Translations under genes and position numbers: made by a program
Origin: a virus
Strand: one strand, 5' to 3'
DNA length: 33,822 bases
Virus record (IMG/VR): IMGVR_UViG_3300045117_000212
Coordinates: 1-33,822 of that record
In this document: piece after piece, positions 3,888 through 33,822 of the stretch
Position numbering within the stretch: the stretch's first letter is position 1
Layout of the letters: every line of letters begins with the position of its first letter
The notes under the pieces: generated by a model
What the model saw: only the letters and a program-made list of their open reading frames with translations
Database searches by the model: none
Told to the model about the DNA's origin: nothing

Positions 3888-4058
3888 ATGGAACGACTGT
3901 CGATATACCGTCTGCAGGAGCCGAACGAGGGACAGTTCTCAACCGTCTTCTCGAACAGGGCAAAGAAGCAGATGCTAAAGGACGGTTGGGAAAAAGGCTG
4001 CTTCTTCGAGGCAATCAGAAAAAGCAAGACGGAAATACTTTTGAAGAGGCTACCATAA
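3888..4058 (+). CDS. Small hypothetical protein
   Basis: Fifty-six residues, MERLSIYRLQEPNEGQFSTVF.... Basic, no cysteine cluster except one Cys, no membrane segment. The stop overlaps the start of the ParB/methyltransferase gene (TAATG), so the two are probably translated together from the promoter at 3852. Family not recognised. Confidence 0.5.
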   Translation: MERLSIYRLQEPNEGQFSTVFSNRAKKQMLKDGWEKGCFFEAIRKSKTEILLKRLP

Positions 4059-5409
4059 TGGACATAACTTTCATAAAAAACGAGCTTCTCCCCCCAGAAC
4101 AGCTCATACAAGACCCAGACAACCCGAACGAAATGAACAACGCCGAATTCGTCGCACTGAAGGCAAACATCGCGCAATACGGCATCCTTGAGCCGGTAGT
4201 CATCGACCAGGACAGCAACATCGTGGACGGCCAGCACCGCTCCATGGCTGCAAAGGAGCTGGGCATCCAAGTCCCCTGCGTGCGCTTCAACATACCCAAC
4301 CCGACAGACAGGCGCATCATCCGCCAAACCCTGAACAAGCTGAGGGGCAAGCACAACCCGCTTAAGGACGCGGAGGAGTTCATAGCCATCCTGAAGGCAA
4401 ATGAGGAAAAGAAGCTCTTCGACCTCACAAGCATCAGGGAAAACGAATTCTACCGGACCATCGCCCAAAAGCAGTCCGAGCAGGAAAAGGATGCCGTCCC
4501 AGAGCCGCCAGAAACGCCAATCACGCAGCCAGGCGACCTTTGGGTAATCGGAGAACACAAAATCATGTGCGGCGACTCCTGCAGCCCAGAGGACGTGGCA
4601 AAGCTTATGGGGGGGGAGAAAAAGCCCATATCGTCATCACCGACCCACCATACGGAGTGGACTACATAGCCCAAATAGAGGGCAGGGAGGGCACAACGAG
4701 CAAATGGAAGCACATCAAGGGGGACGAGCTGAAAGGCAAGGCGCTGCAGGACTTCTGCGCCAAATTCCTCCGCAATATCCAAACCCATACCACCGAAGAT
4801 AGCGCATATTACATTTTTTTTGGCATGAAGACCTTCCACCACTTATTGGCAGCCATGGACGAAACGGAAGTCTATTACGCTTTGCCCCTAATTTGGAGCA
4901 AATCACGCCCGACCATCAGCTGGGCAAAATACCACCCAGACTACGAGATAATGGCTTATGGGGGCAACGGAGCCAAACAGAAGCCCCACAGGGAAAAGGC
5001 AGTGCCAGCATCTGCCGCCCAGGCAAGGAACGACTACCGTCCCGACTACGAGCCAATCGCCTTCAGCGGACATGGCAGCAAACCCAACCAAACGCGGTGG
5101 TTCGCCAAATACGACCAAAACACCACATGGTTCGTCAAACCAGACAACAGTCTCAGCTACGCTCATCCAACTCAAAAGCCCGTGGAGTTGGCCGAACGCG
5201 CCCTGCTGAACAGCTCAAGGGAAGGGGAAGTCTGCCTCGACCTCTTCACAGGCTCAGGATTTACTGCCATAGCCTGCCACAAGCTCAAGCGCATCTTCAG
5301 GGGCATGGAGCTGGAATGTTCTTATGTCGATGTGAGTGTTCAGAGATTAGAACATTACTCTGGTTTGAAAGCGAAATTAATTCGCAACGGCGAGGAAGTG
5401 AAGTTTTAA
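4058..5409 (+). CDS. ParB-like domain fused to DNA methyltransferase, frame broken at a G8 run
   Basis: Residues 1-100 are a ParB/sulfiredoxin-type domain with the G-Q-H-R-S motif (DGQHRSMAAKEL). Then comes a linker and the typical 'GDLWVIGEHKIMCGD' entry into a beta-class methyltransferase: DPPYGVDY (motif IV) and later LDLFTGSGFTA (motif I). Similar fusions are known in phages, often next to packaging genes. The reading frame ends at 4669 in the first frame. The methyltransferase continues in the -1 frame, with the switch at eight consecutive G (4609-4616). The two parts together give about 450 residues, a normal full length. Either the sequence has a G too few, or the locus is phase-variable, or the ribosome or polymerase slips here. 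Confidence 0.8.
4609..4616 (+). other. Homopolymer G8 at the frame switch
   Basis: Eight G directly after the ATG codon of K-L-M. Nine G (or a -1 slip) would join the ParB and methyltransferase frames. G tracts of this kind drive phase variation in many methyltransferases and are also a common site of sequencing error. Confidence 0.75.
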
Positions 5410-5415
5410 AAATCA

Positions 5416-6030
5416 ATGCGACGTAACCATGTCATGATTGAAAAATATTGGATGTGCAATTGGTGTGGCGAGAAAAAGGAAGCCCGACCACCTACAACGA
5501 ATGCGACATGTGAAAAATGCCAACGAGGTAAATTCCGATGTATAATGCGATGCAACTGCCAGAAACTCTTCCATCCCAACTCCAAGAGTCTTCAATTTTG
5601 CAGTCGGAAATGCGCCTACAAATATCGACGAACGCACGAACAAAGGGGAATTCCCAAACCATATCTCTGGCGTGCAAGAATAGGGGCATGTATCAAATGC
5701 GGAAAAGAGTTCCGCGCAGTCAAAGACTTCAAAAACCGAAAACAAAAATATTGCTCAAAGGCATGTTGGGCAACTCGTTCTGGAAGACCTCGCTGGAAAA
5801 GCAAAAGACTGACACTTGCATCGCTTGCGCAAATAAGAAAATGGCGCAAGACGATCTTCAATCGGGACAGAGGAAGATGCGTGCAATGCGGTTCAGACTA
5901 TCGGCTCGAGGCAGATCACATTCTGCCAGTTTCGCAAAGACCCGATTTAATTCTCAACGTAGACAATGGGCGAACACTCTGCCACGAATGCCACAAGCAA
6001 ACCGACACCTACGGAGCGAATCTCAAATAG
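5416..6030 (+). CDS. HNH endonuclease with zinc fingers
   Basis: Two hundred and four residues. The C-terminal HNH nuclease core runs FNRDRGRCVQCG ... LEADHILPVS ... NGRTLCHECH, with the catalytic D-H and zinc C-x2-C pairs. Three or four further C-x2-C pairs lie upstream (C-N-W-C-G, C-E-K-C, C-I-K-C-G, C-S-K-A-C), giving an unusually zinc-rich N-terminus. An HNH gene just before the terminase is common in HK97-like phages, where it aids DNA cutting for packaging; it could also be a homing nuclease. A TATA-like TTTTAAAAA at 5404-5412 overlaps the upstream stop and lies about 23 nt before a second in-frame ATG at 5434, which may be the real, leaderless start. Confidence 0.85.
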   Translation: MRRNHVMIEKYWMCNWCGEKKEARPPTTNATCEKCQRGKFRCIMRCNCQKLFHPNSKSLQFCSRKCAYKYRRTHEQRGIPKPYLWRARIGACIKCGKEFRAVKDFKNRKQKYCSKACWATRSGRPRWKSKRLTLASLAQIRKWRKTIFNRDRGRCVQCGSDYRLEADHILPVSQRPDLILNVDNGRTLCHECHKQTDTYGANLK

Positions 6031-6900: not shown

Positions 6901-8225
6901 TGCAAACCGCTACATGGAGGCCCACCTCGAGGCAAATGGAAGCTTGGGAAATCCTACAAGATGTCACCACAACCGAACTCTTCTACGGCGGTGCGGCGGG
7001 GGGCGGAAAGTCTTACTTGGGCTGCGCATGGCTGCTCGCCTCATGCCTGCGGTATTCCGGCAGCCGTTGGCTTATGGGCCGCGCTGTCCTAAAGCACCTG
7101 AAGGATAGCACACTGCTCACCTTTTTCCAAGTCTGCAAGGAGTGGGGCATCAAGAAAGACGAGCAATACACCTACAACTCAATGGAAGGCGTAATAAAAT
7201 TCTTCAACGGCAGCGAAATCTATCTCAAAGACCTTTTCGCCTACCCCTCCGACCCAGAGTTCGACTCCTTCGGCTCAACTGAATTCACCGGCGCGTTTAT
7301 CGACGAGGGCAGCCAAGTGAGCGAGAAGGCCAAGAACATAATATCTGCCCGCCTGAGATACAAACACAAGGAATTCGAGCTTGTCCCAAAACTCCTCATA
7401 GGCAGCAATCCCTCGAAAAACTTCCTATATTACCAATTTTTCAAGCCGTCAAAGGAAGGAACACTCCCACCTTACCGCAAATTCGTAAGGGCAACCGTCG
7501 GAGACAATCCATATCTTCCCGCACAATACATTGAGCAGCTGCAACGGCTTGACAGGACAAGCCGGGAAAGGCTGTTGTTCGGCAATTTCGATTATGACGA
7601 CGACTCAAGCAAGCTGATGCAATACAATAAAATCACAGACATCTTCACAAACGCGAAAACGGCATCTGAAAAGAAATTCATAAGCTGCGACATTGCCCGA
7701 TTCGGAACGGACAAGACAATCGCGGTAAGGTGGGAAGGGCTGCATATTGCCGAGATAGCCGCGTGGCAGAAGGAAAGCACAAAGGAAACCAGGCTTAGGC
7801 TCGAAGCCATCGCCACAAAACACCAAATCCCAAGGAGCAACATCATCGTGGACGAGGACGGCGTGGGCGGCGGCGTGAAGGACGAAATGAACGGCATACT
7901 CGGATTCGTCAACAACAGCAGTCCGCTTGGGAACACCAACTACGCGAACCTGAAAAGCCAATGCTACTACAAACTTGCCGACTGCGTGAACCTTGGAAAG
8001 ATAAGTTGCGCGGAGCTGGAACCGAGAATAAAGGAGATGCTGATTGAGGACCTGGAGCAAATTGCGCGGAAAGACCCGGACAAGGATAGCAAGCCGGCAA
8101 TAGTTCCGAAAGAGGTGATAAAGGAGAAATTGGGCCGCAGCCCCGACGTGGGCGACGCGATAATGCTAAGAATGCATTTCGAGCTGAACCAAGAGAGTTT
8201 CGGAGTCGCAAGGAAGGGATGGTGA
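6900..8225 (+). CDS. terL: Terminase large subunit
   Basis: Four hundred and forty-one residues, a usual length. ATPase: Walker A G-G-A-A-G-G-G-K-S at about residue 30, Walker B FTGAFIDEG at about residue 130, and a coupling segment GSNPSKNFLY. RNase H-like nuclease: SCDIARFGTD, IIVDEDGVGGGV and DVGDAIML supply the acidic residues. It pumps DNA into the prohead and cuts it. The start is the ATG of the TAATG overlap at 6900; an open extension upstream is just the other frame of the previous gene. Confidence 0.95.
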   Translation: MQTATWRPTSRQMEAWEILQDVTTTELFYGGAAGGGKSYLGCAWLLASCLRYSGSRWLMGRAVLKHLKDSTLLTFFQVCKEWGIKKDEQYTYNSMEGVIKFFNGSEIYLKDLFAYPSDPEFDSFGSTEFTGAFIDEGSQVSEKAKNIISARLRYKHKEFELVPKLLIGSNPSKNFLYYQFFKPSKEGTLPPYRKFVRATVGDNPYLPAQYIEQLQRLDRTSRERLLFGNFDYDDDSSKLMQYNKITDIFTNAKTASEKKFISCDIARFGTDKTIAVRWEGLHIAEIAAWQKESTKETRLRLEAIATKHQIPRSNIIVDEDGVGGGVKDEMNGILGFVNNSSPLGNTNYANLKSQCYYKLADCVNLGKISCAELEPRIKEMLIEDLEQIARKDPDKDSKPAIVPKEVIKEKLGRSPDVGDAIMLRMHFELNQESFGVARKGW

Positions 8226-8665
8226 TGGGCTTTTACAAGAACTTCATAAGGCTCCACGAATTCACGAAAAAGAGCAAATGGAGCTGCGACGGGCAAACAA
8301 AGGTCTTCAACAAATACAACAAACTATCCTTCCCAAGCGACGAGTCAAACAAACTTACTTTTGACGAATGGATTATACAGGCTGCAATCGCCTACAAGCT
8401 GCATGAGAACGGAGTGCCTTTTATCTCAAACAAGCACTTCTACAAGATAGACGTTTTCGGGGACGTTGTCGGGAACGAAACAATAAAGATTCTGAGGCTG
8501 GACAAAATGGAAGCGATACAAAACCGCCCCTCGGAGATTTTCAAGACAATAAACTATGTGAAATACAAGGAGATTCAGGACTTCATGGAGATGCTTTACG
8601 AATATGCGGACGGGATAGTGAAGAACTCCCAGAAGCCGCCAAAGGGAAGCATGAAGGGTTTATGA
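8225..8665 (+). CDS. Hypothetical protein after the large terminase
   Basis: About 146 residues, MGFYKNFIRLHEFTKKSKW.... The start at 8225 overlaps the terminase stop (TGATG); an ATG at 8219 is also possible. Aromatic and charged, soluble, no motifs recognised. Its position between terminase and portal suggests a packaging or head role, but this is inference. The stop overlaps the first copy of the 16-bp late promoter. Confidence 0.6.
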   Translation: MGFYKNFIRLHEFTKKSKWSCDGQTKVFNKYNKLSFPSDESNKLTFDEWIIQAAIAYKLHENGVPFISNKHFYKIDVFGDVVGNETIKILRLDKMEAIQNRPSEIFKTINYVKYKEIQDFMEMLYEYADGIVKNSQKPPKGSMKGL

Positions 8666-8680
8666 GTGTTATTTAAAAAG
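8665..8680 (+). promoter_or_regulatory. Late promoter element, copy 1
   Basis: AGTGTTATTTAAAAAG, starting on the last base of the upstream TGA. TATA-like core; ends 22 nt before the portal ATG at 8703, so the transcript may start at or next to that ATG. A purine-rich AGGAGGAGG lies between. Confidence 0.7.
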
Positions 8681-8702: not shown

Positions 8703-10919
8703 ATGAAAATACTCGGCTTTGAGCTATTCGGAAGTGGGGCAAAAACGCCAGTATCGGAAGCGCGTCCATTGAAGGCATACAGTTCCAGCGAGATGGACGT
8801 CGTTGAAATGCAGTTCCCTCGACTTGGGCTTGAATCGCTTTTCAGTTACGTTTATTACTCAGACACCTACCGCGCCATAACGGATGCGCTCGTAAGGGAA
8901 CTCTTCAGGAACGGCGCAGACTTCACTCCAAAGTTCACGGCAAAATGCACAAACAACCTCTGCCAGGCGGAATTTGACTACGAAGTTGAAAACTGCCCAG
9001 AGTGCAACAGCCCGACAAGGGAGCCCGACCACCAGCAACAGTGGATTTTCAAGGAGTTCGTTTCCGAAGCAAACGCAAACGGGCAGCCATTGGAAGCAGT
9101 AATGAAATCAATCGAGATAGACCTTGACGCGGTTGACAACGGCTACCTGCTTGTCCTGAAAGCCTACACGTTTGGCGCACAAGGGGAAATAATCGGCGCA
9201 GACGTAAAAGAACTGCTCCGAGGCGACCCAAGAGTAATGAGGAAGATAATCGACAGGAAAGGGAGACCGGGCTACGATTGGGACTCTGGGAAAAGAATAC
9301 ATGTCTGCCCCATGCACCGCAACAAGGCGCAGGAAGGCCCAAGATGCTCCGACTGCCAGCTAAAACTCTACCCTGCCTACTTCGTGGCTTTCTCCGAAAT
9401 TCCAACGTATTACCTTGCGGGAGAAGTCTGCCACAGGACAAAATACTCGCAGACAATCTACTACGGTTTCCCCCCGATACTCACGCTGCTCCCAAAAATC
9501 CAAATCCTTCTGGCGCAGGACAAATACATGAGGGCATACTACTACGGGAAAAAATCTCCAAAGGGTATTTTGGCATGGATGACAGGCTCGGTGGAATCAG
9601 CGGAAAAGAAATGGTCGGAATTTGTGGACAGGGCAATAGAGGAGCCAAACAACGTGTTCCCTCTTTTCATAAATCCCGGGCAAGCCAACACAAACGGGGA
9701 CGTGGTGAAATTCATCGACCTGATGCGGACGCCACAAGAAATGCAATACATAGACGTGCGGCAGGAATTAATCACGAAGATAGGAGCATTCCACGGGGTA
9801 ATGCCGATTTTCCAAGCAGACCTGTCACAGAGCGCGGGCTTGAATTCAGAAGGATTGCAGGTAACGGTAACAACGAGGGCGGTGGAAACAGGGCAATCCG
9901 TCCATAATTCATTCTTCGCTTTCTTGGGCTATCAGTTGGGGCTCGTCGATTGGGAATACAAGCTCAATCCCCCGGAGGAAAAGGACGAGATGGCGGAACT
10001 GCAACGGGAAGCCCAGAAAATCGCAAATGCACAAGGAATGAAGAACCTCGGATTTGAGGTGAGCCTGGATGACAGCGGCGAGTTCAAATTCACGGAAAAG
10101 CCGGAAGGGATGCAAAACCTTCCTTTTGGACAGATACCCGAGTTTGGCGCAGGAAGCACGGACGAAGCAAGCGGAACTCCCGACAAAGGCAGATTAGACG
10201 GGGAGCCTTTTGACGAGGGACGAATGATGAAGACCGCTGCCGAAAAAAAAAATTCCCAAGACCAGTATGAGGAAGCGATAAAAAGCGCCATTTCAAGATT
10301 CACACGAGGGAACGCAAAGGAGCTAATCACCGCAATCTCAAGAAGCCTCGTGATGAAGTTTGATGCAATCACCGACAAGTATTTCACAAGAATTTACAAG
10401 GAGAAACTAATCGAATTGGAAAACAGGCTTGGAATAGATTTGGGCTTCACGAAAGACGACAGGGACACATTAATGGCGCTAAAGTCCCAAAGGGTTCTTT
10501 CAAGGGCATACCAAGACCTTGCCCAAAACGTGGAAAAAATGGTGAATGAGGCAACAAGCAAATCCGAATCCAAGGAGCAATTAGCCTCATACATCGACGA
10601 GATAAAAACCTCTACAAGCAGCAACGCCGAGCTAATCGCAAGGACAGAAACGGCAAAAATACAGTCGGCGGCTAATCTTACGAATTTCCGCAAAGCATTC
10701 CCCAAGGGCTTCATGGTAAGGCACGCAGGCCCGACTGACGAAAGGACAACAAAGACGTGCAGAAGAATCATGGAGAGGACAAGGAAAGGAGTCACGGAAG
10801 CGGAATACTACGACACCCTGAAAGAGGAATCAGCAAAGGACTTCCCGACATGGACCGTGGATAGGGAAGCCCCTGTAGCCCATATCCAATGCAGACACAG
10901 GCCCGAGGTGCTGGTTTAG
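8703..10919 (+). CDS. Portal protein with zinc-finger insertions and C-terminal MuF domain
   Basis: Seven hundred and thirty-eight residues. The central part (VFPLFINPG ... FIDLMRTPQEMQYI ... FGVMPIFQ-like stretch, TTRAVETGQS) resembles phage portals. Two Cys-rich insertions lie in the N-terminal third: C-T-N-N-L-C ... C-P-E-C and H-V-C-P-M-H ... C-S-D-C, unusual for portals. The C-terminal ~170 residues (LIARTETAKIQSA ... GPTDERTTKTC ... HIQCRHRP) match the Mu gpF/SPP1 gp7 head-morphogenesis domain, so the gene is a portal-MuF fusion. It forms the ring through which DNA enters, with the MuF part inside the prohead. Ends in a TAGTG overlap with the next gene. Confidence 0.85.
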   Translation: MKILGFELFGSGAKTPVSEARPLKAYSSSEMDVVEMQFPRLGLESLFSYVYYSDTYRAITDALVRELFRNGADFTPKFTAKCTNNLCQAEFDYEVENCPECNSPTREPDHQQQWIFKEFVSEANANGQPLEAVMKSIEIDLDAVDNGYLLVLKAYTFGAQGEIIGADVKELLRGDPRVMRKIIDRKGRPGYDWDSGKRIHVCPMHRNKAQEGPRCSDCQLKLYPAYFVAFSEIPTYYLAGEVCHRTKYSQTIYYGFPPILTLLPKIQILLAQDKYMRAYYYGKKSPKGILAWMTGSVESAEKKWSEFVDRAIEEPNNVFPLFINPGQANTNGDVVKFIDLMRTPQEMQYIDVRQELITKIGAFHGVMPIFQADLSQSAGLNSEGLQVTVTTRAVETGQSVHNSFFAFLGYQLGLVDWEYKLNPPEEKDEMAELQREAQKIANAQGMKNLGFEVSLDDSGEFKFTEKPEGMQNLPFGQIPEFGAGSTDEASGTPDKGRLDGEPFDEGRMMKTAAEKKNSQDQYEEAIKSAISRFTRGNAKELITAISRSLVMKFDAITDKYFTRIYKEKLIELENRLGIDLGFTKDDRDTLMALKSQRVLSRAYQDLAQNVEKMVNEATSKSESKEQLASYIDEIKTSTSSNAELIARTETAKIQSAANLTNFRKAFPKGFMVRHAGPTDERTTKTCRRIMERTRKGVTEAEYYDTLKEESAKDFPTWTVDREAPVAHIQCRHRPEVLV

Positions 10920-11308
10920 TGGGAGACGAGGCGGCTTATCTGGCATTCATAGATGAGGTTCTCACAATCGTAGCCTACAAAATACTGAACCAGGCAAACA
11001 AGAACATAGACGACTACAAAATAAACGACACCGGGCGACTTAGGGGCTCAGGGGTGGTGGAACCAGCTGGAGAGGAATATTTGATTGTCTGGAAAGCCCC
11101 TTATTCGGGGGCAATTGAGTTTGGCTCACACCCACACATGGTTCCAGCAGAAGTCCTGTATGGCTGGGTAAGGAGAAAAATGAGAATAAGCGATGACAGA
11201 AGAGCATGGGGAATCGCTTATGCAATCCAGAAGGAAATAGCCGAAAGCGGACAAACAGGAAGGCACTTCATAAGGGACGCAATAGACATGATGGCTGCCA
11301 ATCCTTAG
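10919..11308 (+). CDS. HK97 gp10-like head-tail/neck protein
   Basis: One hundred and twenty-nine residues from a GTG overlapping the portal stop, with GAGGTG about 9 nt upstream. The motif D-T-G-R-L-R-G-S followed by YSGAIEFGSHPHMVP and a tail helix is the HK97 gp10 family signature. Such proteins usually act in head-tail joining or tail completion, though the gene here lies early, between portal and protease. Good family match, role inferred. Confidence 0.75.
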   Translation: MGDEAAYLAFIDEVLTIVAYKILNQANKNIDDYKINDTGRLRGSGVVEPAGEEYLIVWKAPYSGAIEFGSHPHMVPAEVLYGWVRRKMRISDDRRAWGIAYAIQKEIAESGQTGRHFIRDAIDMMAANP

Positions 11309-11322
11309 TGTTATTTAAAAAG
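11307..11322 (+). promoter_or_regulatory. Late promoter element, copy 2
   Basis: AGTGTTATTTAAAAAG on the TAG stop of the gp10-like gene. It ends 21 nt before the ATG at 11344 but only 6 nt before the ATG at 11329, which favours 11344 as the protease start. Confidence 0.7.
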
Positions 11323-11343
11323 GGGAAGATGGAAGTGTTTGAT

Positions 11344-12387
11344 ATGCAAGCGCACATGACAAACTTGGCTTCACCTGCAATTGAGGGCAGTCCATCCATA
11401 TCACCCCCAATACTGATTAAGAATGAAGGTTTGCCCTCGCAGGATGAGGCATTTTACATTCTCAACTCAGACGAAAGGCTCTTTACGGCGTGGCTGTCCG
11501 TAGAGATAAAGGACAACCAAGGGCAGATAATCCCAATGGGCGAGTTCAAAAAGTCAATGCCGATGTGGATGGCAAGAGGGGCGCCGATAACAATAATGCA
11601 CTCCAACATGGTGGTAGGAAAGTGCCTCAATTACCAATTTGCGACAAACCCGGCTACGGGAGCAGAAGGAATACTTGTAACAGGATTGATTTTCAAAGGA
11701 AACACGCTTGACGACCAAGCATGGGAAAAGGTGCAGTCAAAACAGTTCGCAGGCGTTTCAGTAGGCGGGACGGCTTCACTCAAAAAATCAAAGGACGGCA
11801 TATTGAGGGGCTTTGAACTGTTTGAGATGGCTCTTGCAGATAAACCCGCAAACCCGGCAGCAGTAATAGAGACAGTTTCTCAGGTGGCAAAAGCAGATAC
11901 AACGCCAGTAAAAACGGAAAAAATCAACAAAGGTGATTTTGTGCCAGATGATGAAAAGAAACCCGAGGAGGAAAAGCCGAAGGTGGAAACAAAAGTCGAA
12001 CCTCCAAAAGAGGAAGCTCCGCCAGTGGCTCCTCCAAAAGAGGAAACAAAAACAGAAATGCCTCCGACTTCAGCACCACCAGCAGAAGCACAATCGGACA
12101 CGGCTGAGATGAAGGCGATACTGGTAAAAATCTATGAAATGCTCACATCCGCTCAACATGTCAAGGAGTCTGTGAAAACAGGAACAGCCCCTGTAGAGAC
12201 AAAATCGGACATAACGGCAGTGAGAAAATCAGAGGCGGAAATATCAACGCCGAGACCAGATGCCGTTTCTGACTTCTCCCCAAAAGAGGAGAAGAAAACC
12301 CTTGGCGACAAAGCGGTTGAAATCGCAAAGGGACTGGTAAGGTTCAACCCCCGCGAAGACTACCGGGCAAGAAGTAGCCAAAACTAA
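11344..12387 (+). CDS. XkdF-like prohead protease fused to scaffold-like tail
   Basis: Three hundred and forty-seven residues from ATG 11344 (352 from 11329). Residues 30-200 follow the XkdF putative serine protease pattern: FTAWLSVEIKDNQG, the H of 'ITIMHSNMVVGKC', and the S of 'FAGVSVGGTA', the likely catalytic His and Ser. The second half is rich in Pro, Glu and Lys, ending in helices, as in scaffold domains. The position directly before the capsid gene fits a protease-scaffold that shapes and matures the prohead. The promoter overlaps the preceding stop. Confidence 0.8.
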   Translation: MQAHMTNLASPAIEGSPSISPPILIKNEGLPSQDEAFYILNSDERLFTAWLSVEIKDNQGQIIPMGEFKKSMPMWMARGAPITIMHSNMVVGKCLNYQFATNPATGAEGILVTGLIFKGNTLDDQAWEKVQSKQFAGVSVGGTASLKKSKDGILRGFELFEMALADKPANPAAVIETVSQVAKADTTPVKTEKINKGDFVPDDEKKPEEEKPKVETKVEPPKEEAPPVAPPKEETKTEMPPTSAPPAEAQSDTAEMKAILVKIYEMLTSAQHVKESVKTGTAPVETKSDITAVRKSEAEISTPRPDAVSDFSPKEEKKTLGDKAVEIAKGLVRFNPREDYRARSSQN

Positions 12388-12396
12388 GGTGATAAA

Positions 12397-13596
12397 ATGC
12401 AATGGAACTATGGAAGCCAAGAAAACCTTGCTCTTTACGAGAGGCTCATCCAAGAGCAATACAAAGGAGTGCCAGCCTCTCCGTCTGACGTAACGTCAGT
12501 GAACAAAGCCGATGCGCCTATACTGTCCTCAACGACAGGCTTTTTCAATCCGGTTTATGGGGCGTCGGTAATGCAGCAACTCGCCCACGACAGCGTCCTT
12601 TTCGGGATGCTGCCAAAATACCCCTACAAGAAAAGGGGATTCAGGGCTGAAACCACGAGATTCGTGACAAGCGGAGTGGGTGTTGCGGAAAACGCAGCAG
12701 TGCCTGACAGCGTGAAAAACGCAATTGCAGCGGTTGATGTTCCAATAAAGGAGCACGCAATCACTGTTGAGATTTCAGAAAGACAGAGGCTCCTGATGGA
12801 AGCGGGGGACGACACAGCATATACCGACTACGCGGGAGTGATGGAAAGCGCAAAGAGGAGTTTCTCCTATGCTTACGACGCTGACATAAATACCGACGTA
12901 ACAACAGTCGCCTCCAACAACTCGGAGTCAATCGACAGGGTTGTTTCCTCATATGCAGAGGTTACTAACTGCGCTGATGTGAATGCAAACGACGCTGACA
13001 TTTACTCACTGGACAGGGATGCAGCTGCTTCATGGACGGATGCATATGTGAATCATGGCTCCAACGTAACAAGGGTTCTTTCAGACACCATCGTTAGGGC
13101 TGTTATGAGCAATACCGTTTCCAACGGGGCAGACCCCAGGACCCAAGTCTGGTATACAGGCGCAGACACTTACGAGGCACTTGTCGGATTGTATGGCACA
13201 CAGAACAGATACGCTATGCAATTCACAGGCCCCGGGACAAGTGCAGTGTCCGGAGAGCCCGCAAAAGGAATCGCTTACGGGATGGAGATGGCGACCCTTT
13301 ACGGAAGACCCTTCTTCGTTGCACCAACAGGAAAAGTGGTTGCAAACGGAGCAGCAGGAGCAGGAACGGCAATATCAAACCTCTACCTGCTTGACTTGGG
13401 AACCGACCCAATCTATGGCGAACCAATATTGGGCATAAAGACGCTCAGGGCTCCAATCCTTGCAAAGACAGGACTGATGGACGGTTACCCTGCGCACGCA
13501 AAGCTCGGCAACGAAACCATCATCTACGCTGCAATGGAGCTTGAATGCAAGAACTTTAAGCGACAGGGCAAAGCGAGAGACCTTGCAGCACCCTAA
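12397..13596 (+). CDS. Major capsid protein, HK97-type
   Basis: Three hundred and ninety-nine residues. AGGTGAT, a perfect SD, lies 4 nt before the ATG. The sequence has the expected N-arm, then an E-loop-like stretch (PYKKRGFRAETTRFVTSGVG), a long helix region (VEISERQRLLMEAGDDTAY) and C-terminal TDPIYGEPILGIKTLRAP, in keeping with HK97-fold capsid proteins. Neighbours (protease before, small head proteins after) support this. There is no signal peptide and only about three N-X-S/T sequons, unlike the fibre proteins. A hairpin follows the stop. Confidence 0.8.
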   Translation: MQWNYGSQENLALYERLIQEQYKGVPASPSDVTSVNKADAPILSSTTGFFNPVYGASVMQQLAHDSVLFGMLPKYPYKKRGFRAETTRFVTSGVGVAENAAVPDSVKNAIAAVDVPIKEHAITVEISERQRLLMEAGDDTAYTDYAGVMESAKRSFSYAYDADINTDVTTVASNNSESIDRVVSSYAEVTNCADVNANDADIYSLDRDAAASWTDAYVNHGSNVTRVLSDTIVRAVMSNTVSNGADPRTQVWYTGADTYEALVGLYGTQNRYAMQFTGPGTSAVSGEPAKGIAYGMEMATLYGRPFFVAPTGKVVANGAAGAGTAISNLYLLDLGTDPIYGEPILGIKTLRAPILAKTGLMDGYPAHAKLGNETIIYAAMELECKNFKRQGKARDLAAP

Positions 13597-19197: not shown

Positions 19198-19656
19198 ATG
19201 GTCGAAAACAGCACAGCCAAAGTCGAGGCAGCCCCTCCAGCAAAAGGAATCGCTACAGAAGGAACTACATCAACCCAGCTTCCGCAATGGGATTTTTTTC
19301 AATGGGACTACTGTATGTATGAAGGTCTGGTAACGTCAGGTGCACCTCCTGATGGGGAAGCAGTTGTTGAAACAACCAAACAGGCAAAAGGTTCAGTAGA
19401 AGCACCGAAAAGGTCAAAATCATTTGTGGAAGCCACAAAACAGGCAACGGGGTCGGTAGAATCTGCCATCAGGTCAAAATCATTTGTGGAAACAACACGG
19501 TCAGCAAAAGGTTCAGTAGAAGCACCGAAAAGGTCAAAATCATTTGTGGAATCTGCCCAAATGGCTAAAGGCACAGTAGAAGCAGTCAAACGTTCAAAAT
19601 CATTTGTGGAAGCCACAAAACAGGCAAGGGCATACATTGAGCCAACGAAGGTTTAG
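19198..19656 (+). CDS. Decapeptide-repeat protein
   Basis: One hundred and fifty-two residues; AGGAGG 7 nt before the ATG. The N-terminal 60 contain 'TSTQLPQWDFFQWDY' and no known motif. Residues 60-150 are about nine copies of a 10-residue unit, consensus V-E-A-x-K-x-x-K-x-x, alternating GS/SF endings (VEAPKRSKSF, VEATKQAKGS). The regular V/E spacing suggests stacked beta turns or a charged fibre. No signal peptide. Not assigned to a family; its place between fibre and connector genes suggests a virion or surface role. The stop carries promoter copy 3. Confidence 0.7.
   Translation: MVENSTAKVEAAPPAKGIATEGTTSTQLPQWDFFQWDYCMYEGLVTSGAPPDGEAVVETTKQAKGSVEAPKRSKSFVEATKQATGSVESAIRSKSFVETTRSAKGSVEAPKRSKSFVESAQMAKGTVEAVKRSKSFVEATKQARAYIEPTKV
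19381..19620 (+). repeat. Four 60-bp tandem coding repeats
   Basis: Exact 60-bp period starting at 19381, 19441, 19501 and 19561; each has TCAAAATCATTTGTGGAA at the same place. Each encodes two decapeptide units. It is not CRISPR: repeats are contiguous and coding. Confidence 0.85.
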
Positions 19657-19670
19657 TGTTATTTAAAAAC
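19655..19670 (+). promoter_or_regulatory. Late promoter element, copy 3
   Basis: AGTGTTATTTAAAAAC on the TAG stop of the repeat-protein gene. Followed by GATGAGGT and the non-ATG start of the connector gene. Confidence 0.65.
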
Positions 19671-28299: not shown

Positions 28300-29199
28300 A
28301 TGGCAGTTGGAGCAGTAATCACAAACAACGGCGAAGACCTGTTGCACTACAGGCTTTATGGGACAGGCTCAAAGAGTGCTGTTACAAAACTACACATTGG
28401 AGTGGGGACAACAACACCAGCCGAAGGAGACACGAATATACAGACACTTGTGCCAGTAACTTCCCAATTAATCAACAAGTGCGACACACCAGGGGATTTT
28501 TCACAAAGCACCGATGCAATAACGCCAACAGCGAACACAACCACTTACAAAGAAGGCTATGGGACAACGGACAACACTTCCCTTAACATCGGAAAATCAG
28601 GGACAACGGAGGCCCTTGTCTATTATCGGGACACTGTTTCAATCGACATGAGCGGAACATCGCCGTATATGTGGTGCTGGCTGCATATCCTGAACTCAGG
28701 CGCACTTGCAAAAATCTCCAATGTGCAGCTTTATGTAAGGCAAGGCGCAAATTACCGATATTGGCAAACAGGTGTTGCTTCACTTGCTGTCGGCTGGAAC
28801 CTGATAAAAACGGGGGTATTCACCAGTTACACAGGACAAAGTGGAACAGCACCCACTCTTTCGGCCATAGACACAATAGAACTGCGAATCAACACAACAG
28901 CATCGAGCGATACCTTTAGCTTGGGGGACTTGAAGATGGACTTCTTCCATTGGGAACTTTTTGCCAACTCCAATATTGGGGCGCTTACCGGCTATCCGAC
29001 TGTTTCAGGACAGGTGGCGACAGCCCGTTATTACATCTCATCCACAAAGGCGCTTGGCTACGATTTGAGGGAATGTGGGGAGTTCAACACCGACTCTACT
29101 CCGGTCATGTATTCCCATGACGTCCATAACAGCCTCGGCTCTTCCGGAAAAACAAGCGAGATTGAACTGCATTACATTCTTACACACACAATCAGTTAG
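28300..29199 (+). CDS. Tail fibre/receptor-binding protein
   Basis: Two hundred and ninety-nine residues; AGGTGG before the ATG. N-terminus 'AVGAVITNNGEDLLHYRLYGTGSKSA', a fibre-like base. The middle has a complete jelly-roll ('TSLNIGKSGTTEALVYYRD ... MWCWLHIL ... VGWNLIKTGVFTSY ... IDTIELRINTTAS ... LKMDFFHWEL'). The C-terminal part (YYISSTKALGYDLRECGEF) is beta-rich. Last gene of the tail unit; stop carries promoter copy 5. Confidence 0.65.
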   Translation: MAVGAVITNNGEDLLHYRLYGTGSKSAVTKLHIGVGTTTPAEGDTNIQTLVPVTSQLINKCDTPGDFSQSTDAITPTANTTTYKEGYGTTDNTSLNIGKSGTTEALVYYRDTVSIDMSGTSPYMWCWLHILNSGALAKISNVQLYVRQGANYRYWQTGVASLAVGWNLIKTGVFTSYTGQSGTAPTLSAIDTIELRINTTASSDTFSLGDLKMDFFHWELFANSNIGALTGYPTVSGQVATARYYISSTKALGYDLRECGEFNTDSTPVMYSHDVHNSLGSSGKTSEIELHYILTHTIS

Positions 29200-29213
29200 T
29201 GTTATTTAAAAAG
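29198..29213 (+). promoter_or_regulatory. Late promoter element, copy 5
   Basis: AGTGTTATTTAAAAAG on the TAG stop of the fibre gene; ends 20 nt before the ATG at 29234, the spacing expected for a leaderless transcript. It should drive the lysis unit. Confidence 0.7.
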
Positions 29214-32318: not shown

Positions 32319-32395
32319 GCAGGCCATTCAGCGGACGTGCAGGGAGCATCAGCAGGCACTACACGCGAATCGCCCGCATGGAGAGGAGAAAATGA
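32315..32395 (+). CDS. Possible 26-residue basic ORF
   Basis: MSRPFSGRAGSISRHYTRI..., Arg-rich, joined by ATGA overlaps to both neighbours (32315/32318 and 32392/32395). Such double coupling favours translation, but the product is very short. Confidence 0.3.
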   Translation: MSRPFSGRAGSISRHYTRIARMERRK

Positions 32396-32478
32396 AACTG
32401 ACCATTTTGCAAGGCGACATTTTCGAGAGGCTGCCTCAAATCCCAAGCGACAGCATCGACCTTTGCATTAGTTTTTAA
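32392..32478 (+). pseudogene. Truncated methyltransferase N-terminus, copy 1
   Basis: Twenty-eight codons: MKLTILQGDIFERLPQIPSD..., then DLCI, the usual lead-in to a methyltransferase motif IV (SPPY), but the frame ends 'SF' and stop. GGAGAGGAG precedes the ATG. It is cut just where TSPPY should follow, at the start of the endonuclease cassette. The second copy begins at 32972. Confidence 0.7.
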
Positions 32479-32481
32479 ATA
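32472..32481 (+). promoter_or_regulatory. TATA box of the endonuclease gene
   Basis: TTTTTAAATA, ending 22 nt before the ATG at 32503, leaderless spacing. It overlaps the stop of the truncated methyltransferase. Confidence 0.6.
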
Positions 32482-32502
32482 CTAAGTCCCCTAATTGGTG
32501 GT

Positions 32503-32961
32503 ATGGGAAACATTCAATATCTCGCAGGAATAATCGATGGGGAAGGCTGTATTTTTGTGAAGCGTTCTACTTATCGCATGCGCTCGGAAAAATATGGGGA
32601 TTGTAAGAACCCAGAATTTCATCCACGCATTCAGGTCAAGATGACCAACGAAGAAGTGCTACGTCTCCTCGCAAAAGAATTCGGAGGCTCAATTTATCAA
32701 GAGAAACGTCTGCATCCCTCCCGTTCTGGATTCGCGCCGAGAAAGCTCCTCTGGGTTTGGCATACCAGCGACAGAAAAGCGGCACAAGCGTTCGAGCAGT
32801 TAATTCCATTTCTTATTGTGAAGAAAAAGAATGCGGAGAACGCATTTGCCCTTTACAAATTCAAGAAATCAATCCACAGAGAAAAGCATCGCGCATTCTC
32901 AACGGGAGAAGTTGCTCGTTTAGAAGAATATTATCAAATGAGCAAAAGACTGAACAAATGA
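32503..32961 (+). CDS. LAGLIDADG homing endonuclease
   Basis: One hundred and fifty-two residues. The motif 'YLAGIIDGEGCIFV' at the start is the single LAGLIDADG signature, so it probably works as a homodimer; the following 'RIQVKMTNEEVLRLLAKEFGG' is typical. Such enzymes cut an uninterrupted allele so that repair copies them in. GGTGG lies just before the ATG. It is flanked by two copies of a methyltransferase N-terminus, see findings. It is a free-standing enzyme, not an intein. Confidence 0.9.
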   Translation: MGNIQYLAGIIDGEGCIFVKRSTYRMRSEKYGDCKNPEFHPRIQVKMTNEEVLRLLAKEFGGSIYQEKRLHPSRSGFAPRKLLWVWHTSDRKAAQAFEQLIPFLIVKKKNAENAFALYKFKKSIHREKHRAFSTGEVARLEEYYQMSKRLNK

Positions 32962-32971
32962 GGTGGTTGCC

Positions 32972-33822
32972 TTGCGCCTGACAATCTTGCAAGGAGATGT
33001 CTATGAAAAGATAAAGGAAATTCCAGCGAACTCCGTTGATTTGTGTATCACAAGCCCCCCTTATAGCGCATAAAGCGCAAGGAATGGGGACTCCGAACAT
33101 ACAACGCGGGTGAGAAAGAACTGGGAGCAGAACCGACCATGGACGCTTATCTTGACAACACACTGCGCTGGGTGAAAGAAGTCTGGCGTGTTCTCAAACC
33201 AACAGGAAGTTTTGTGCTGAACATCGGCGACTGCTGGTGTGGTTATCGTGGTAACGATACCAACTCCTCAGAAATTGACCCTAAGAAAAAAGGATTTCCT
33301 ATGCAACTTAATAGGGGTATCATTCAAAAGGAAGGAGGCATCTACAAAACCAAACAACTCCTAAGCGTTTCCAGCTTCCTCTACTGCCGTGTCGTCAGCG
33401 AAACGGACTTCGTATGCCGGGGAGAGCACATCTGGGCGAAGCCAAACGTCCCCTCACCTATAAGAAGCCGCCTAAAGCACAGCCACGAGAAGCTGTTTTG
33501 GTTTGTGAAGGATGCGGACAAATATTATTTCAACCAGACACCGTGGATGAAAGACGTGCAACCAAACAAAATCAGGCAGGAAGTCTATCATCCAGCTTAC
33601 GAGAACATTGGGCTGTCGGAAACTTCCACCATGCGAACAAAAACATGGACCAACGAAAAAACAATCGAACACTCATGGCGCATCATCCCAGTTGGAGCAA
33701 AGCAAAGCGGCTTCGAACTGGCGGGAAAGAAAGCGAGCGAACACATTGCGCCCTATCCTGAAGAGCTGATACGCCCATACATCAAAAGTATGGTTCCGCA
33801 CAGAGGCACCGTGTTGGATTGT
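32972..33822 (+). pseudogene. Frame-shifted DNA methyltransferase, 3' end outside window
   Basis: The second copy of the N-terminus starts TTG 32972 (LRLTILQGDVYEKIKEIPAN...) and reaches 'DLCITSPPYSA' then a TAA at 33071. The remainder is open in the -1 frame from about 33067 to the window end: EWGLRTYNAGEKELGAEPTM, then VWRVLKPTGSFVLNIGD, EHIWAKPNVPSP, HEKLFWFVKD, ending RGTVLD, where motif I should follow. Motif IV S-P-P-Y suggests a beta-class N4-cytosine or N6-adenine enzyme. The break lies beside a repeated AGCGCA; it may be a true disruption, programmed shifting or a sequencing error. Confidence 0.75.

Follow-up and report, generated by a model that had tools for sequence, protein, structure and literature searches.

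A LAGLIDADG endonuclease gene between two methyltransferase N-termini, and a predicted 20-nucleotide bulge-helix-bulge intron, in a virus with a likely archaeal host

The sequence analysed here, referred to as the window, is a 33.8-kb virus contig from IMG/VR (IMGVR_UViG_3300045117_000212; 33,822 nt), and the features we describe lie on the + strand near its 3' end. The first of these is a truncated methyltransferase N-terminus of 28 codons, N1 (32392-32478), which reads MKLTILQGDIFERLPQIPSDSIDLCI followed by S, F and a stop codon (ORF residues LTILQGDIFERLPQIPSDSIDLCI) and has a ribosome-binding site, GGAGAGGAG, just upstream. Next comes an ORF for a LAGLIDADG_1 homing endonuclease of 152 aa with one LAGIIDGEG motif (32503-32961; Pfam match), with a TATA-like box, TTTAAATA (32474-32481), 29 nt before its ATG. 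This box lies within TTAGTTTTTAAATA, which resembles the TTAGTGTTATTTAAAA motif that precedes further genes of the virus. The bases ACTAAGTCCCCTAATTGGTGG (32481-32501) may be a decayed motif IV of copy 1, a weak and post hoc resemblance whose local alignment with the joined copy-2 site is equalled by 14 of 5000 shuffles and by 93 of 20000 random windows. The second methyltransferase N-terminus, N2 (32972-33064), has a TTG start and a ribosome-binding-like GAGGTGG upstream, reads LRLTILQGDVYEKIKEIPANSVDLCITSPPY, and would serve as exon 1 of the gene proposed below. It is followed by 20 nt, AGCGCATAAAGCGCAAGGAA (33065-33084), placed between codons for Y and W, which we predict to be a bulge-helix-bulge intron from a gap in homology and from the RNA fold. 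The presumed exon 2 (33085-33822), beginning WGLRTYN, encodes the body of a beta-type N4/N6 DNA methyltransferase (Pfam N6_N4_Mtase) and is cut by the end of the contig. The elements described in an earlier note on this DNA, namely the two N-termini, the TATA-like box and the endonuclease ORF, are all present where it placed them.

The two N-termini are identical at 15 of 24 residues, and of 196 homologous N-termini N2 scores highest against N1 (93, with the next at 81). Among 90 LAGLIDADG endonuclease loci, N1 and N2 also give the strongest match between upstream and downstream flanks (tblastx E 4.7e-10). Their DNA is only 58% identical, and third codon positions agree no more often than by chance (8/24), which argues for an old divergence under protein-level selection and against a fresh duplication. 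The proposal that an endonuclease with a promoter-like box of its own separates a truncated N-terminus from a diverged replacement, with motif IV as the insertion point, is borne out by this anatomy, and an endonuclease ORF between the old and the diverged new terminus of one gene is the arrangement seen in mORF hybrids. The same architecture was found at none of 89 related endonuclease loci; flank repeats at five of the loci (L039, L078, L054, L057 and L085) were apparent only, and were rejected as they are not duplicated gene ends.

The earlier note had further suggested that the replacement N-terminus restores the host gene, and that the arrangement differs from an intron. N2 is in place and predicted splicing would restore the gene, but the DNA of copy 2 is itself interrupted after SPPY, where 20 bases (33065-33084) that contain an in-frame TAA and shift the reading frame part TSPPY from WGLR. 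Restoration therefore needs RNA splicing, and the distinction from an intron was wrong in part, given the predicted 20-nt bulge-helix-bulge intron in copy 2. Group I and group II introns were rejected, there being no Rfam match.

The position of the interruption is set by protein homology, as TSPPY is followed directly by [WFY]xLRxY in all eight homologs that we aligned without selecting for the junction motif, a set that covers archaeal viruses, phages and a plasmid. A further 160 loci are not independent evidence of this since they were found using patterns that contain the TSPPY/[WFY]xLRxY junction. N2 and the 246-codon body are each stop-free in their own frames, and when joined over the 20 nt they form an open frame of 277 codons, truncated by the contig end, with the Pfam N6_N4_Mtase score rising from 76 bits for the body alone to 95.9 bits. 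Searches of IMG/VR, genomes, phages and plasmids returned no close relative, with or without the insert, and the best methyltransferase matches were below about 38% identity. No second insert between SPPY and [W]xLR was found in IMG/VR or in 392 genomes from the phylum of a Methanothrix MAG using patterns that allowed TAT or TAC for the tyrosine and required a glycine after it.

With the bounds of the insert fixed from protein homology before any RNA folding, the minimum-energy fold of 33040-33110 (RNAfold) is CCCC-CCUU-[AUA]-GCGC-AUAAA-GCGC-AAGG-[AAU]-GGGG, and the same hairpin appears in both the minimum-energy and centroid structures of a 301-nt context. The whole bulge-helix-bulge spans 33055-33089 with 12/12 Watson-Crick pairs, and is made up of an outer helix (CCCC/GGGG, 33055-33058/33086-33089), a central helix (CCUU/AAGG, 33059-33062/33079-33082), an inner helix (GCGC/GCGC, 33066-33069/33075-33078) and the bulges AUA (33063-33065) and AAU (33083-33085). 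In the canonical archaeal motif a 4-bp helix is bounded by two 3-nt bulges, one on each strand (PMC4090602), and precisely this is found here between flanking helices. Cuts after the second nucleotide of each bulge would excise exactly 33065-33084, that is, the ends set by homology, so that the predicted intron sits between codons and directly after the catalytic motif IV. Its length of 20 nt is inside the ranges of archaeal tRNA introns (11-129 nt; PMC4090602) and cbf5 introns (16-44 nt; PMC2738675).

Counting both strands, the window contains just this one perfect motif with an intron length of 16-60 nt, and none was seen in six shuffled windows. When the insert was shuffled by mononucleotides with the exons held fixed, Watson-Crick central and inner helices arose in 1/200,000 cases (2/200,000 with G-U pairs), and dinucleotide shuffles with G-U allowed gave the motif in 3/20,000. 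It should be noted that perfect 12/12 motifs occur elsewhere, at other loci, at a chance rate of about one per 100 kb per strand, so the weight of the argument lies in the coincidence of the motif with a junction defined by homology. On this basis the 20 bases are very probably an archaeal mRNA mini-intron whose removal would restore the N2-C methyltransferase.

Such an intron calls for an archaeal host, as in a bacterial host the 20-nt insert would stay. The major capsid and portal proteins of this virus have nine and ten record matches, respectively, all of them to archaeal tailed viruses. TATWWAAA boxes are found 31-40 nt ahead of three gene starts (3 seen against 0.18 expected), several of them within the TTAGTGTTATTTAAAA promoter-like motif. 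This motif recurs with small variations a few dozen bases before gene starts at 8665-8680, 11308-11322, 19656-19670 and 29199-29213, and we read these occurrences as viral TATA boxes of the archaeal type. The nearest relatives of the terminase come from Bacteroidota phages, with 47% identity to that of Flavobacterium phage 11b. We note the mixed ancestry of the genome, in which a bacterial-phage-like terminase (6954-8222) contrasts with a portal and capsid region (8703-13593) matching archaeal viruses only. Taken together, the host is likely to be archaeal.

The endonuclease ORF matches Pfam PF00961 (LAGLIDADG_1, E 4.3e-6), and the family profile matches I-MsoI, I-CreI and I-CvuI (PDB), which are homodimers. 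An AlphaFold model (pLDDT 91) has I-CreI as its best Foldseek match (E 5e-8) and also matches the archaeal intron-encoded I-Vdi141I, while the motif aspartate D12 and the lysine K107 are invariant in 42 sequences. A single LAGLIDADG motif with its acidic residue, a length of about 150 aa and an I-CreI fold are thus all found, and the modelled enzyme is predicted to act as an I-CreI-type homodimer. The uninterrupted joint, AGCCCCCCTTAT/TGGGGACT, is palindromic at 7/10 positions around a centre 2 nt left of the insertion and falls in the top 0.3% of the window, though the SPPYWGL codons themselves account for part of this symmetry (median of 5/10 in homologs). Enzymes of this class usually leave a 4-nt 3' overhang, and given such an overhang the predicted top-strand cut would coincide exactly with the position of the 20 bases. 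The most likely target of the endonuclease would be the intron-less, pseudo-palindromic SPPY/WGLR codons of related methyltransferase genes.

The explanation which we favour overall, with somewhat better than even confidence, is that an archaeal-virus methyltransferase gene carries a homing endonuclease module together with a mini-intron. The gene would be read from N2 through the 20-nt intron to the methyltransferase body, with the host tRNA-splicing endonuclease cutting the transcript after 33064 and after 33084, and a ligase joining SPPY to WGLR into an intact catalytic motif IV. The endonuclease homodimer would cut an intron-less motif IV site with a staggered break at the intron position, and repair from the present locus would co-convert the endonuclease, N2 and the mini-intron. 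As the intron would destroy the target site the carrier would be protected, and splicing of the RNA would spare the methyltransferase. The likely target of the cutter in the DNA would thus stay blocked, and repair of the methyltransferase probably takes place in the RNA. N1 would be the displaced N-terminus of the invaded gene, and the weak, post hoc motif IV remnant behind it fits this role. If the mini-intron is granted, we regard homing with co-conversion as evenly balanced between true and false. The proposal in full, of a mobile archaeal-virus module in which a LAGLIDADG endonuclease, a replacement terminus and a target-blocking mini-intron are co-converted together while the host tRNA-splicing machinery mends the mRNA, is a tentative one that we place somewhat short of even.

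A serious rival accepts the same mini-intron prediction and differs only in the origin of the N1-N2 adjacency: two methyltransferase genes may have stood in tandem, with the endonuclease entering the first, whose body was then lost, and the second independently carrying a mini-intron, in which case there would be neither a cassette nor a replacement N-terminus. The long-ago divergence of N1 and N2 indicated by their DNA is compatible with this history, and at least two other methyltransferase genes are present in the virus. Against it, the closest known relative of N1 is N2, the two breaks lie in motif IV or next to it, and a weak motif IV remnant follows N1 just before the endonuclease ATG; we consider the tandem origin unlikely, though well worth keeping in mind. 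A broken gene is less probable still. Here the 20 bases would be end-joining filler left after a double-strand break, perhaps one made by this endonuclease, the methyltransferase would be a recent pseudogene and the hairpin an accident. The insert does coincide with the predicted cut, the short direct repeat AGCGCA occurs within it, 12 of its bases recur at 2463, and a second methyltransferase of this genome (3986-5409) is frameshifted. Filler would not be expected to yield a 3-nt bulge on each strand, a 4-bp helix between the two and cuts that match the codon junction exactly (1-2/200,000 and 3/20,000 shuffles). N2 and the body also each have a frame without stops. A templated origin of the 20 bases was rejected, its sole support being the match at 2463, which is at chance level.

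Two further alternatives can be given very little weight. An endonuclease within a long intron that extends from N1 as far as N2 or the body would recall archaeal rRNA introns, which often encode LAGLIDADG enzymes (PMC4496867). Bulge-helix-bulge motifs joining the end of N1 to sites up to 33200 occur at background level only, however, no Rfam group I or II intron was matched, N1 reads into a stop codon, and a separate promoter-like box precedes the endonuclease gene, all of which makes this highly improbable. It is scarcely credible, and marginally less likely than the long intron, that the ribosome itself crosses the 20 nt, by frameshifting or by programmed bypassing of the kind seen in T4 gene 60. 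There is a precedent in T4, where an endonuclease-split gene has a non-coding insert that may protect it from cleavage (PMC5009743), but no matched take-off and landing codons and no slippery site can be read from the sequence across the 20 nt, and a simple change of frame would add some seven residues inside motif IV.

Damage to a methyltransferase gene near a nuclease gene is also seen elsewhere in the window. The frameshifted gene at 3986-5409, which encodes a ParB-domain/N6 methyltransferase, is split near 4630, where an A6 run lying a few codons short of the DPPY motif contains one A too many. Contig L002, which is 99.98% identical over 13,677 bases with no gaps, has the same bases at this site, and so the frameshift is probably not an assembly error. 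Directly behind it lies a gene for an HNH endonuclease (5416-6030; best PHROG E 5e-17), the second case in this genome of a nuclease gene adjoining a damaged methyltransferase.

Several published systems share parts of this arrangement. The ShiLan element is a homing endonuclease element in an actinophage DNA methylase (PMC11855218), and as in our locus it occupies a conserved stretch of a viral DNA methylase gene; the ShiLan enzyme is of the HNH type and lies in an overlapping frame, with no duplicate terminus and no intron found. LAGLIDADG endonucleases also occur in another frame inside the C5 DNA methylase genes of Mycobacterium phage DotProduct (L006, 3001-3360) and the Gordonia phages Ailee (L005, 2835-3194) and Keitabear (L013, 3001-3360), a layout resembling the published ShiLan element but with a different nuclease family. 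We rejected these three phages as examples of the architecture described here, as their endonucleases overlap the C5 methylases in a different arrangement.

The fungal mitochondrial mORF hybrids (Allomyces atp6 and Glomus atp6, atp9, cox2 and nad3) combine a LAGLIDADG ORF with a diverged replacement terminus and leave the old one behind (PMC3630166). The termini of the atp6 hybrid are 64% identical in DNA (PMC3630166), similar to the 58% seen here, but those replacements are C-terminal, fused in frame and lack an intron, whereas ours would be N-terminal and is accompanied by a predicted intron. Genes 39/60 of phage T4 are likewise split by a homing endonuclease beside a non-coding insert, of 50 nt, which is overcome during expression (PMC5009743); a different gene and endonuclease are involved, and T4 depends on ribosomal bypassing where we predict RNA splicing.

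Very few pre-mRNA introns have been confirmed in archaea; the publications compared here name the cbf5 gene and one leader (5' UTR) in Haloferax. The crenarchaeal cbf5 introns interrupt a catalytic codon and are spliced by the same machinery (PMC2738675), and the present case is similar in having a short bulge-helix-bulge intron at the catalytic site of a protein gene, in this instance directly after motif IV. In cbf5, however, the gene is a host gene, no endonuclease is present and splicing has been shown, whereas our intron is viral and predicted. Rudivirus SIRV1 also has tiny putative introns of 12 bp in archaeal virus genes (Peng et al. 2004, cited in PMC2738675), which are in frame and have no endonuclease, while the insert described here shifts the frame and must therefore be removed for function.

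The closest parallel to the pairing of a LAGLIDADG endonuclease with a neighbouring short bulge-helix-bulge intron is found in the 16S rRNA gene of Pyrobaculum oguniense, where the Pog.S1213 endonuclease cuts the intron-minus site of the short hairpin intron Pog.S1205 (<50 nt), and Pog.S1213, Pog.S1205 and the bases between them are co-converted (PMC4496867). That endonuclease is encoded within its own intron in a cellular rRNA gene, whereas at our locus, where we infer the link between the two elements, the gene is viral and protein-coding, the endonuclease is free-standing and a replacement N-terminus lies in between. This locus bears on the question of how introns that leave no room for a coding sequence come about and move. 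The cbf5 authors have suggested that short introns arise by loss of the endonuclease part (PMC2738675), a proposal whose proof needs an intermediate; here a predicted, frame-breaking mini-intron in a viral protein gene is paired with an endonuclease gene close by and an exchanged gene terminus. If our interpretation is right, some apparently broken genes of archaeal viruses may be spliced, and this would be the first protein-gene bulge-helix-bulge intron tied to a homing endonuclease among the published systems we compared, and would represent a route by which archaeal mRNA introns arise and move.
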